DNA of 64,000 nucleotides, taken from assembly GCF_014207965.1 (NCBI RefSeq), contig NZ_JACHLM010000006.1, positions 248,001 to 312,000 on the forward strand. The letters are read 5' to 3'. Below, in pieces: positions 42,476 through 44,856 of the stretch (its first letter is position 1; each line of letters opens with the position of its first letter). Both the position numbers and the translations under genes were made by a program. The DNA comes from Brevundimonas bullata (GTDB lineage Bacteria; Pseudomonadota; Alphaproteobacteria; Caulobacterales; Caulobacteraceae). Under the pieces are notes generated by a model that was not told where the DNA came from, ran no database searches, and saw only the letters and a program-made list of their open reading frames with translations.

Positions 42476-43243
42476 ATGGCTTTCACCCGCACCTACGACG
42501 GCCTTGAGCCTGTCCGCATCAACAAGTGGCTGGGCCAGACCGGCGTCTGCTCGCGCCGCGAGGCCGAGGCCCTGATCGCCGCCGGCATGGTCACTATCGA
42601 CGGCGAGAGCGTCACTGATCCCGGCCGCAAGATAGAGCCGGGCCAGACCCTGACCCTGAACGACCGGGGCGAAGCCGCCCTGGCCTCGGGCGTCACCATC
42701 CTGATCCACAAACCGCTAGGCTATGTCTCGGGCCAGCCTGAGCCGGACAAGATCCCCGCCGTGCGCCTGCTGACCGCCGAGAACCTGGTCGGCGAAGGCA
42801 CGCCCCCCGCCGAGGACGCCTCCCTGCCCCCCATCGGCCGCCTGGACGAGGATTCGCGCGGTCTCCTGATGCTGTCGTCCGACGGCGTGGTGGCCAAGGC
42901 CGTGATCGGCCCGCAGTCGAAACTGGACAAGGAATACCTGGTCCGTATCGAAGGCGATGTGACCGAGAAGAAGCTGGCCTTGCTGCGCCGCGGCCTGATG
43001 CTGGACGGGCGCATCCTGAAGTACGCCAAGGTTTCGCGCATGGAGCAGAACCGCCTGCGCTTCATCCTGACCGAGGGCCGCAACCGCCAGATCCGCCGCA
43101 TGTGCGAGATGGTGGACCTGGAAGTCACGGACCTGCTGCGCATCCGCGTCGGGCCCATCCACCTGAACAACCTGCCCGAGGGCAAATGGCGGATGATAAC
43201 GAACGAAGAACGCGACGCCCTGATCAGCGGCTCTACCTACTAA
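42476..43243 (+). CDS. RluF/RluB-type 23S rRNA pseudouridine synthase
   Basis: A 255-residue pseudouridine synthase of the RsuA/RluB/RluE/RluF family. An N-terminal S4 domain (VRINKWLGQTGVCSRREAEA) is followed by the catalytic domain with ILIHKPLGYVSG and the catalytic-aspartate motif IGRLDEDSRGLLMLSSDG, then GRNRQIRRMCEMVDLEV. The GRLDxDSxGL form and single S4 are nearest RluF (23S U2604-type). It isomerises a uridine in 23S rRNA, but the site is not provable here. It is one of three pseudouridine synthases within 6 kb. Confidence 0.87.
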   Translation: MAFTRTYDGLEPVRINKWLGQTGVCSRREAEALIAAGMVTIDGESVTDPGRKIEPGQTLTLNDRGEAALASGVTILIHKPLGYVSGQPEPDKIPAVRLLTAENLVGEGTPPAEDASLPPIGRLDEDSRGLLMLSSDGVVAKAVIGPQSKLDKEYLVRIEGDVTEKKLALLRRGLMLDGRILKYAKVSRMEQNRLRFILTEGRNRQIRRMCEMVDLEVTDLLRIRVGPIHLNNLPEGKWRMITNEERDALISGSTY

Positions 43244-43246
43244 GGT

Positions 43247-43543
43247 TTAGCTGGCGACGATCCCGGCCAGCCGGGTCAGCTCCGACACATGGGCGGCAAA
43301 GGCCGTCTTGCCGTCCGGGGTCAACGCCAGCCAGGTGCGCTGACGCCCCCCCGCCGCCGCCTTGCGGACCTTGAGATAGCCCGCGTCCTCCAACTGCTTG
43401 ACGTGCTTGGACAGAACGGAATCGGACACGGCGATGGCGTCGCGAACCGTGGCGAACTCCACCTCGTCCGCCGCCGACAGCATGGCGCAGATCTGCAGCC
43501 GGCCCGGGGCGTGAATGACAGCGTCGAAGACAGGCGCTCTCAC
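43247..43543 (-). CDS. Winged-helix transcriptional regulator (HTH_27 type)
   Basis: A 98-residue single winged-helix domain of the PF13601 type: FDAVIHAPGRLQICAMLSAA, the recognition helix SDSVLSKHVKQLEDAGYLKV and wing AAAGGRQRTWLALTPDGK. These small dimeric repressors usually regulate their own operon. It starts with GTG 43543, overlapping the stop of the upstream membrane-protein gene by four bases, so both proteins are co-produced. TTTCC-N5-GGAAA palindromes upstream of the pair are candidate operators. An unusual spacing to rRNA genes or metal genes was not seen. Confidence 0.82.
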   Translation of the reverse strand: MRAPVFDAVIHAPGRLQICAMLSAADEVEFATVRDAIAVSDSVLSKHVKQLEDAGYLKVRKAAAGGRQRTWLALTPDGKTAFAAHVSELTRLAGIVAS

Positions 43544-43989
43544 GGCATGCTCCGAACGTCGATGCGATACAGCCGCATCCAGACGCGCATGCCGATCACG
43601 CCCAGACCGGCGGCGACAGCGCCGTTCAGGAGGGGAACCCAGATCAGGCCCTGCATGCGGCCCGCCCAGATGCTGAACAGCATAAGCCCCATGAGGATCA
43701 CCCCTAACCCGATCGCGGCCCAACGTGCGCGCTTCGGGCTGTAACCGTTGACCCAGACGCCGGTGCGGGCCTGCCATTTCCGCATGATGATCACCAGGAT
43801 GGCGATCGCCACTGTCACACAAACGATGCCGATCGGCGCCGGAAACCCCTGCCCGGCCACAAGCAAGGCGCAGGCAGCCGCATAGCCGGCATCATACCAC
43901 CACGGCCAATATTCCATTTTTTCAAGGGCTTGCTCCCGGCCTTCGAGAACGATTGCGAGCGCCTCCTGGGGCGTCTGTTCAGCGGGCAT
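43540..43989 (-). CDS. Membrane protein of unknown function, partner of winged-helix regulator
   Basis: A 149-residue protein with about four predicted membrane segments (AGYAAACALLVAGQGFPA, IGIVCVTVAIAILVIIM, WAAIGLGVILMGLMLFSIWA, LLNGAVAAGLGVIGMRVWM). The loop RKWQARTGVWVNGYSPKRAR between TM2 and TM3 is basic and has a conserved look. No transporter motif is seen. Genes of this kind are repeatedly found next to HTH_27 regulators in diverse bacteria and are of unknown role. The ATG at 43989 has GGAGG upstream; two palindromic operator candidates lie within 80 bases. Confidence 0.7.
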   Translation of the reverse strand: MPAEQTPQEALAIVLEGREQALEKMEYWPWWYDAGYAAACALLVAGQGFPAPIGIVCVTVAIAILVIIMRKWQARTGVWVNGYSPKRARWAAIGLGVILMGLMLFSIWAGRMQGLIWVPLLNGAVAAGLGVIGMRVWMRLYRIDVRSMP

Positions 43990-44005
43990 TGCGATCCTCC
44001 ATCAC

Positions 44006-44020
44006 TTTCCAAATAGGAAA
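44006..44020 (-). promoter_or_regulatory. Palindromic operator 1 of the winged-helix pair
   Basis: TTTCC-AAATA-GGAAA, a perfect 5+5 inverted repeat. It overlaps the predicted -10 end/start site of a promoter read on the minus strand (TTGACG at 44046-44041, spacer 16, TCATTT at 44024-44019). Confidence 0.65.
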
Positions 44021-44054
44021 ATGACTCTGACTTTCCAGATCGTCAAGTCATAAG

Positions 44055-44069
44055 TTTCCAGGTTGGAAA
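44055..44069 (-). promoter_or_regulatory. Palindromic operator 2 of the winged-helix pair
   Basis: TTTCC-AGGTT-GGAAA, extended by AG/CT on both sides (AGTTTCC...GGAAAACT). It lies just upstream of the -35 and ends two bases before the stop codon of the ATP12 gene. A half site TTTCC at 44032-44036 sits between the two palindromes. Confidence 0.65.
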
Positions 44070-44070
44070 A

Positions 44071-44835
44071 CTAAGACCGCAACGCCTCGAACCACCGCTG
44101 CAACAAGGCCGCCTCTTCGCGGTGCGCCGCGACGCGGGCGGCGGCTTCCTCGTCCACGCCCCAGCGTTCCTCGGTAAAGGCCTCGTCCAGCCGCGACAGG
44201 TCCAGCGCCGCCTCGCCCGACAAGGCGCCGCGCTGCACCGCCAGCCCAAGCACCGCCGAGCCCAGCAGGGGCACCGCCGTCGCCAGCGCCGTCAGGGCGT
44301 GGTCGTCCATGTCCAGCGCCAGCGCCTTGACCCGCTCCAGCGCCTCGGGCGCCTGCGCCCGGTGCACGATGCCCTCGGCGGGATGCAGCACCACGTCCAG
44401 CTCCCTGGCCGCCCAATCGCGCCAAGGCCCCCACTCGGCCTGCTGGCGCTCGATCAGAACCGTCGGATGTTCGGCCAGATAGCAGATGACGTCCGACCCG
44501 GCGTAGGCGGCGATCTCGGCGGCCACCGGCTCGCGCGTTTGACTGACCCGGTCGATAGCGGTCGAGGCCAGACGCGTCGCGGGCATGGTCCCCGGGATCA
44601 GGAACTCGCCTTGCGCCGCCCATTCGTCCGCCACCAGTTGCGCGGCGGCTTCGGTCGGCAGGGTCAGGGTGGCGCCAGCGGGCGTCTTGGGCGTGCGCCC
44701 GTCCAGACGCACCGTCCAGCCGCCGTCGTCCCTCGTTACCTCGACGGCCTTCCAGGAGCGTTTGATGCGCTCCTCCGACTCACGAAACCCCTTGCGGGCG
44801 GCGACATTGGGATCAAGCGGGGGAATGTGGGACAT
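44071..44835 (-). CDS. ATP12 family F1-ATPase assembly chaperone
   Basis: A 254-residue protein of the ATP12 family. Blocks include RLDGRTPKTPAGATLTLPTE, LVADEWAAQGEFLIPGTMPA, TRLASTAIDRV and DVICYLAEHPTVLIERQQAE, then a C-terminal helical region to HREEAALLQRWFEALRS. In mitochondria and alphaproteobacteria it helps insert the alpha subunit during F1 assembly. The ATG at 44835 was chosen over TTG 44847, which is in frame. It is last in an overlapping run crcB-rluC-HAD-ATP12. Confidence 0.87.
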   Translation of the reverse strand: MSHIPPLDPNVAARKGFRESEERIKRSWKAVEVTRDDGGWTVRLDGRTPKTPAGATLTLPTEAAAQLVADEWAAQGEFLIPGTMPATRLASTAIDRVSQTREPVAAEIAAYAGSDVICYLAEHPTVLIERQQAEWGPWRDWAARELDVVLHPAEGIVHRAQAPEALERVKALALDMDDHALTALATAVPLLGSAVLGLAVQRGALSGEAALDLSRLDEAFTEERWGVDEEAAARVAAHREEAALLQRWFEALRS

Positions 44836-44856
44836 GGGTGGTCTCAAGCAGCCAAA

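Follow-up and report, generated by a model that had tools for sequence, protein, structure and literature searches.

SdpR of Bacillus subtilis is a small ArsR-type winged-helix protein. In the sdpRI operon, SdpI is described as an immunity factor that responds to SdpC by sequestering the autorepressor SdpR at the membrane (PMC1626106). At the yit locus of the same organism, YitQ is described as a membrane anti-toxin that is unlike SdpI and lies beside a predicted regulator, YizB (PMC6818787). The LytTR regulatory systems, such as HdrRM and BrsRM, pair a DNA-binding protein with a membrane inhibitor and are described as autoregulated and widespread, with direct repeats upstream of the -35 element and positive feedback (PMC6193735).

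Here, we analyzed mem-reg, a two-gene operon of Brevundimonas bullata that encodes a membrane protein (MEM) and a DNA-binding regulator (REG) and lies in the window, which is the whole 64,000-nucleotide stretch that was studied (loci and genomes are numbered L and G below). The nearest known system in logic is SdpR-SdpI, in which two genes, one for an autorepressor and one for a polytopic membrane protein, likewise form an operon; however, the gene order there is reversed relative to mem-reg, none of 54 MEM proteins matches the SdpI domain (PF13630) at an E-value of 0.01, REG is best matched by HTH_34, and no toxin gene was noticed at mem-reg. One SdpI-family gene does adjoin a separate triple-operator promoter in genome G143. 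YizB-YitQ, whose likeness is known from the description of the pair, is again a regulator with a membrane protein and, as described, indicates that a membrane protein in this role can be unlike SdpI, but no toxin operon was noticed at mem-reg. The LytTR systems have the same minimal pair, whereas mem-reg has a winged-helix regulator and inverted repeats over the probable -35 and the start region. In sum, mem-reg shows none of the tested protein families by which SdpRI or LytTR systems are defined, and the LytTR family is absent among the 15 Pfam matches of REG at E-values up to 1. A literature search found no publication on PF13601 or on the TTTCC-N5-GGAAA motif, and nothing was recognised in it on an HTH_34/membrane-protein pair, Caulobacter included, or on a winged-helix autorepressor sequestered at the membrane. 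We propose, with a probability of about 0.6, that REG is an autorepressor acting at three operators and that MEM relieves this repression from the membrane.

Results

The mem-reg promoter contains three operators

As shown in Table 1, MEM is the first gene on the minus strand and REG the second, and translational coupling through their GTGA overlap is likely. The gene for an ATP12 chaperone lies upstream of MEM, with its stop codon 1 nt from O1, and an S4/pseudouridine synthase gene lies downstream of REG, tail to tail. The 81-bp gap upstream of MEM holds O1, O2 and O3 in gene direction, with centre-to-centre spacings of 23 bp (O1-O2) and 26 bp (O2-O3).

Table 1. Features of the mem-reg locus, in window coordinates
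Feature	Position	Strand	Remark
REG, 98-aa winged-helix regulator	43247..43543	-	Start GTG 43543-43541; Pfam HTH_34 (PF13601)
GTGA, MEM stop/REG start overlap	43540..43543	-	From the sequence
MEM, 149-aa membrane protein	43540..43989	-	N-terminal helix and 4 predicted TM helices
GGAGG, probable ribosome-binding site of MEM	43996..44000	-	From the sequence
O3, TTTCC-TATTT-GGAAA, perfect palindrome	44006..44020 (extended 44004-44022)	.	Over the -10/start region
Tentative -10, TCATTT or CATTTT	44018..44024	-	16-17 bp from the -35; sequence reading
O2, ACTTGAC-GATCT-GGAAAGT	44030..44048	Read on minus strand	2 mismatches from ACTTTCC-N5-GGAAAGT
Probable -35, TTGACG	44041..44046	-	Embedded in left arm of O2; TTGCC/TTGAC conserved in related loci
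O1, TTTCC-AACCT-GGAAA, perfect palindrome	44055..44069	.	Upstream of the -35

An earlier note on this DNA had described the gene overlap and two perfect TTTCC-N5-GGAAA palindromes, one at the putative start region and one above the -35, and all of these stand. Its half site proves to be O2, a third operator that is complete though asymmetric and whose imperfect arm is the probable -35: the left arm contains TTGACG, which suggests a third operator bent to serve as a -35 element. A -10 at 16-17 bp would sit at the edge of O3, and O3 would then cover the start site. The O3 of the window contains no ATG. A simple sigma-70 consensus scan scored no promoter at mem-reg.

REG is a winged-helix protein of the HTH_34 family

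REG scored 84 bits against HTH_34 (cut-off 27; residues 16-93 of P0001) and 17.7 bits against HTH_27 (PF13463), below the cut-off of 22.2, so that the HTH_27-type label first given to it is replaced by HTH_34. It also passed HTH_20, a 51-position HTH model (30.1 vs 27), and fell below the cut-offs of the MarR family (PF12802, 21.3 vs 27; PF01047, 12.5 vs 24.6) and of the ArsR/SmtB family (HTH_5, 16.8 vs 22; NCBIfam HTH_metalloreg, 31.8 vs 55). The AF2 model is a confident winged helix (pLDDT 94.7), and the closest solved structure, both by sequence profile and by fold (TM 0.85), is PH1061 (PDB 1ub9), an archaeal protein with 24% identity to REG. PADLOC gave only weak HTH matches for REG and one 9-bit match for MEM, and a phage search returned no relatives of REG at an E-value of 1e-5. 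In the REG alignment, the recognition-helix region (VSDSxLSK) is almost invariant, which fits the constant operator sequence, and residues D7, H11 and H85 are near-invariant.

These features bear on the alternative that survives best, in which REG is a one-component autorepressor that senses a small ligand, a metal or a redox change, and MEM is only the regulated product, a transporter or membrane protectant that never touches REG. Given its MarR/ArsR/PadR-like fold, REG could itself be a sensor, D7, H11 and H85 could contact a ligand or the other subunit of a dimer, and the HTH_34 cousin L086 sits with an ABC transporter. However, REG is a bare winged helix of 98 residues without a separate ligand domain, an invariant cysteine is absent, and the metalloregulator score lies below its cut-off. 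Residues like D7 and H11 are also present in HTH_34 cousins with other gene neighbours, which suggests that they are structural, and the tight co-occurrence of REG with MEM across phyla is not required by that model. We regard this alternative as a serious one, though unlikely.

The palindromes are conserved upstream of REG homologs

A contig scan with REG gave 39 loci, 35 of them with REG by profile. The MEM search of the own family (Caulobacteraceae) matched 50 of 199 genomes, and REG profile searches matched 11 of 229 genomes in the class of G532, 21 of 246 in the phylum of G586 and 12 of 240 in the own class; five plasmid loci were added. The resulting 129 loci comprise 118 distinct loci with a REG of at least 30 bits, 4 without REG and 7 duplicates. 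The REG profile (A2, 35 rows) is not wholly motif-independent because six of its rows (L076, L078-L082) came from a pattern search.

The results show that MEM lies upstream of 70 of the 73 REGs that scored at least 100 bits (3 have no MEM match) and that a perfect palindrome is found within 1.1 kb upstream of 68. In contrast, among the 45 HTH_34 cousins below 100 bits, a weak MEM match was found once and a palindrome never. Since loci fetched with MEM in the own family are unsuitable for counting the presence of MEM, loci fetched with REG were counted separately, and at 100 bits or more MEM is present in 46 of 49 and the palindrome in 44 of 49; the window's own locus is included in both sets. 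Of the five REGs without a perfect palindrome, four have degenerate sites (L136, L087, L109 and L129), and none was seen in L035. The range of the system covers Alpha- and Gammaproteobacteria, Actinomycetota and one Latescibacterota MAG. Outside the actinobacteria, one or more palindromes lie near the start in 49 of 50 loci with MEM and two or more in 42, and the O2 pattern ACTTGNC-N5-GGAAA occurs in 41; the corresponding numbers for the 20 actinobacterial loci with MEM are 17, 2 and 10.

When arms were scanned without a prior choice of motif, TTTCC with a spacer of 5 ranked first among 1024 arms and 13 spacers, with ranks two to four being shifted readings of TTTCC-N5-GGAAA. It matched at least 59 of 70 upstream regions, which is an underestimate because some regions ended inside the operator. 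Judged by this conservation, the palindromes are functional. The earlier note had read them as evidence of autoregulation and had proposed a search upstream of homologous pairs; the counts from that search and the arm scan support the reading, and the placement of the sites fits autorepression. Taken together, the palindromes are almost certainly the operators of REG, and REG very probably represses mem-reg.

One clade of actinobacterial REGs (L020-L026 and L032, Geodermatophilaceae) is 64-68% identical to the REG of the window, compared to 49-58% for the f8 rows L078-L080 and 70% for Sphingomonas parva (L027), and several Geodermatophilaceae loci share the O2 sequence. The similarity of the Geodermatophilaceae REG to that of the window reflects either cross-phylum transfer or strong conservation.

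The operators alone locate the system

A search for paired palindromes, which is independent of any protein, matched 10 of 398 Pseudomonadota genomes (own genome included), with 0 matches for the reversed control, and REG was present in the fetched locus at every match. Of 198 genomes of the own family, 42 carry the O2-O3 pattern, each at one place, as do 14 of the 189 genomes searched in the family of G424; both controls gave 0. In the own family, 38 of the 42 places lie directly before MEM (28 read directly, 10 judged from MEM coordinates), one is at a contig edge (L219), two precede an accessory gene followed by MEM and REG (G022 and G029), and one precedes another gene (G143). In the family of G424, where REG is wholly or partly outside some of the fetched stretches, 11 of 14 places are directly before MEM and 3 are before a CPBP protease gene followed by MEM.

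Single TTTCCA-N3-TGGAAA sites were found in 59 of 198 genomes of the own family, with at least 9 genomes for the reversed control among the matches listed. Of 29 single-site loci scanned among the matches listed, 16 have MEM and REG and 13 have neither; of these 13, L177 is the hydrolase promoter of G143, and L164, L167, L178, L179 and L188 seem from sequence reading to be inside coding DNA. MEM and REG are likewise missing at three further single sites (L224-L226). L175, another of the 13, has TTTCC-N5-GGAAA (near 1501) and, at a distance of about 27 bp, a near copy; both lie ahead of what read as a HigB-type toxin gene and, after it, an XRE-type gene, and this may be an unrelated operator of similar look.

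In the window, 0.04 perfect palindromes are expected by chance, and two were reached in 0 of 100 shuffles. These shuffles, the unprejudiced arm scan and the conservation counts rule out chance palindromes. The 3.7-Mb genome contains three perfect copies of TTTCC-N5-GGAAA, including the two at mem-reg; the third (L001) adjoins neither MEM nor REG and is apparently in coding DNA. The extended motif with up to three mismatches occurs at 38 places in the genome, compared to 72 for the reversed control, and with up to two mismatches at four places, namely O3, O2, L153 and L154, of which the last two adjoin neither MEM nor REG. Thus, the extended-motif search gave no clear further target of a wider regulon in this genome.

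Two HTH_34 paralogs of REG in the same genome (L147 and L150, contig C3 of G000) belong to the weaker set and have neither MEM nor operators. Different multi-TM proteins lie upstream of L150 and of the cousins L138, L139 and L099 in other genomes, and the combination of HTH_34 with a membrane protein may be a more general pairing. L086, on a plasmid of Thermomicrobium roseum, is an HTH_34 regulator (86 bits) clustered with the ATPase and permease of an ABC transporter, without the operator.

Operator spacing and promoter overlap

In 72 distinct O2-O3 contexts, the O2 arm reads TTGCC in 45, TTGAC in 26 and TTGGC in 1, counts that are conditioned on a search pattern which itself fixes ACTTG. In 55 contexts ACTTG is preceded, at exactly 21 nt, by a perfect O1, which the other 17 lack at that place, while the O2-O3 gap varies from 10 to 18. 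The mostly constant O1-O2 distance suggests cooperative dimers, and the variable O2-O3 distance points to a constraint set by promoter spacing. In 28 of 70 loci with MEM, ATGGAAA forms the end of the last palindrome, and its ATG shares the reading frame of MEM in 26 of these (12 of 12 in actinobacterial loci), although the loci are related and hence not independent events. In Klenkia and its kin, the first MEM codons may lie inside the operator, which suggests a leaderless mRNA.

Variant layouts with two palindromes 28-31 bp apart were seen in L098 and L112-L113, and in L112 and L113 TTGAC is found just before the first palindrome rather than inside it. At L238 (2026-2450, gene direction), the match to REG is split into two parts, suggestive of a frameshift or an insertion in the regulator; the MEM match and the operators look normal.

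The position of the sites bears on whether REG represses or activates. With O2 over the -35 and O3 over the start region, occupancy by REG would block RNA polymerase, and sites at these positions favour repression over activation. Activation by REG, with positive feedback like that of the LytTR systems and O1 as the activator site, would fit the place of O1 upstream of the -35 at a mostly constant spacing, but not the overlap of O2 and O3 with the -35 and the start region, nor the actinobacterial loci with MEM, which keep a palindrome near the start in 17 of 20 cases and have two palindromes in only 2; the LytTR repeats, as described, lie upstream of the -35 (PMC6193735). We consider activation improbable.

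MEM is a small membrane protein with no predicted outer domain

The MEM of the window is above no Pfam gathering cut-off. Its model consists of one short and four longer helices (pLDDT 91.3), in agreement with the four-helix membrane protein described earlier. Imm17 (PF15562) is the commonest Pfam match among the 54 MEM proteins at an E-value of 0.01 (4 of 54), and the MEM of the window scored 17.8 against it, below the cut-off of 25. A Foldseek search of the model against solved folds gave nothing at an E-value of 0.001 or below, and the best VIA match (Z 6.0, rmsd 6.0 over 131 residues) is at a level that is uninformative for helical bundles. The mean number of K+R is 0.02 and 0.63 in the outer loops vs 2.5-3.6 in the N terminus, the middle loop and the C terminus, and these three are predicted to be cytoplasmic, with two short outer loops. 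The middle loop is conserved (TGxWVxG..P.RAR). MEM has no predicted outer domain, which leaves the membrane itself or its surface as the place where any signal would act.

Accessory genes and probable exchange of the cassette

Although most operons have no accessory gene, the operators also serve genes for CPBP, TraB/GumN or alpha/beta hydrolase proteins in seven cases. A CPBP intramembrane protease gene (PF02517, 55.7-62.1 bits) is first in the operon in G022, G1299, G1364 and G1310 and is divergent at the operators on a Sphingomonas insulae plasmid, and in G029 the first gene encodes a TraB/PrgY/GumN protein (159 bits). A complete O1-O2-O3 promoter, separate from mem-reg, serves an apparently secreted alpha/beta hydrolase in G143, and an SdpI-family gene (53.6 bits, cut-off 28.2) adjoins this promoter. 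Abx1, an Abi-domain protein, reportedly interacts with the kinase CovS (PMC3578759).

In six close pairs, which are not independent because four share genomes, dN/dS was 0.15-0.45 for MEM, 0.04-0.12 for REG and 0.07-0.13 for ATP12; in three further pairs with very different MEMs, it was 0.40-0.79 for MEM and 0.10-0.41 for REG. The faster change of MEM may reflect only weak constraint on a small membrane protein. Between the window (42476-44847) and L053 (G102), identity is 91% for ATP12 and 97% for the pseudouridine synthase but 38% for MEM and 68% for REG, and synonymous divergence is 1.7 for MEM and 0.97 for REG vs 0.29-0.45 for the flanks. Faster protein change alone would not raise dS, so that an exchange of the cassette, or else an old allele, is the probable cause. 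In both loci, the cassette occupies a fixed site between the ATP12 and pseudouridine synthase genes. Accessory genes, fast MEM change, cassette divergence and tandem MEM genes together resemble a specificity-bearing protective module, without proving one.

A toxin-antitoxin-like cassette, in which MEM is a membrane toxin held low by REG, is the least probable alternative: MEM is small and hydrophobic, repression is apparently tight, the distribution is patchy (50 of 199 family genomes) and MEM is beside REG in 4 of 5 plasmid loci examined, but genomes tolerate MEM genes in tandem (at 6 of 20 actinobacterial loci and at 2 of the other 50), the accessory genes encode hydrolases, and many relatives keep the chromosomal place beside an ATP12 gene (27 of 71 loci, counting duplicates).

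Discussion

Comparison across genomes strongly supports the identity of the operators and their overlap with the promoter. Binding and repression by REG, its contact with MEM, the signal from the membrane and the role in protection are inferred. In the reading that we prefer, an autorepressor relieved from the membrane, REG would bind three inverted-repeat operators of the ACTTTCC-N5-GGAAAGT type at the mem-reg promoter, with O1, usually at a fixed distance from O2, probably adding cooperativity. Upon a membrane signal, the most likely route of relief is that MEM would bind REG and pull it off the DNA, leading to a quick, self-limiting rise of MEM, joined in some species by an intramembrane protease or another hydrolase under the same control. 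Protective membrane proteins, rather than a regulon, would be the output. That O1 is dispensable (absent from its usual place in 17 of 72 contexts, with two palindromes in only 2 of 20 actinobacterial loci) and that MEM is patchily distributed count against this model, as do the five REGs without a perfect palindrome, the three without a MEM match and the small number of cases with accessory hydrolases. No MEM-REG fusion was noticed among the loci read.

The earlier note had left the role of MEM open, and the accessory genes, the divergence and the known analogues narrow it without settling it. We give even odds to MEM acting as an anti-repressor, and its protective function is put forward more tentatively. 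The data hint at an undescribed membrane-stress or immunity switch. A bolder version, which we hold to be doubtful, is that MEM-REG is a widespread, polymorphic family of inducible immunity in which MEM is both the receptor for, and the protection against, membrane-active compounds of competitors. REG would then be a tethered repressor, the CPBP, TraB-like and secreted hydrolases would destroy the compound, and cassettes would be swapped at a fixed chromosomal site to change specificity, making the system a Gram-negative and actinobacterial counterpart of SdpRI without a toxin of its own.

Taken together, these results describe a regulator/membrane-protein pair with a diagnostic DNA signature, present from Caulobacteraceae through to Klenkia. 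With reversed controls of 0, the paired and the O2-O3 signatures locate members and co-regulated genes from DNA alone. The promoter is economical, with one operator arm as the probable -35 and, in some loci, an operator ATG in frame with MEM. If MEM is an anti-repressor and a protectant, small membrane immunity systems outside the Firmicutes would become a testable class.
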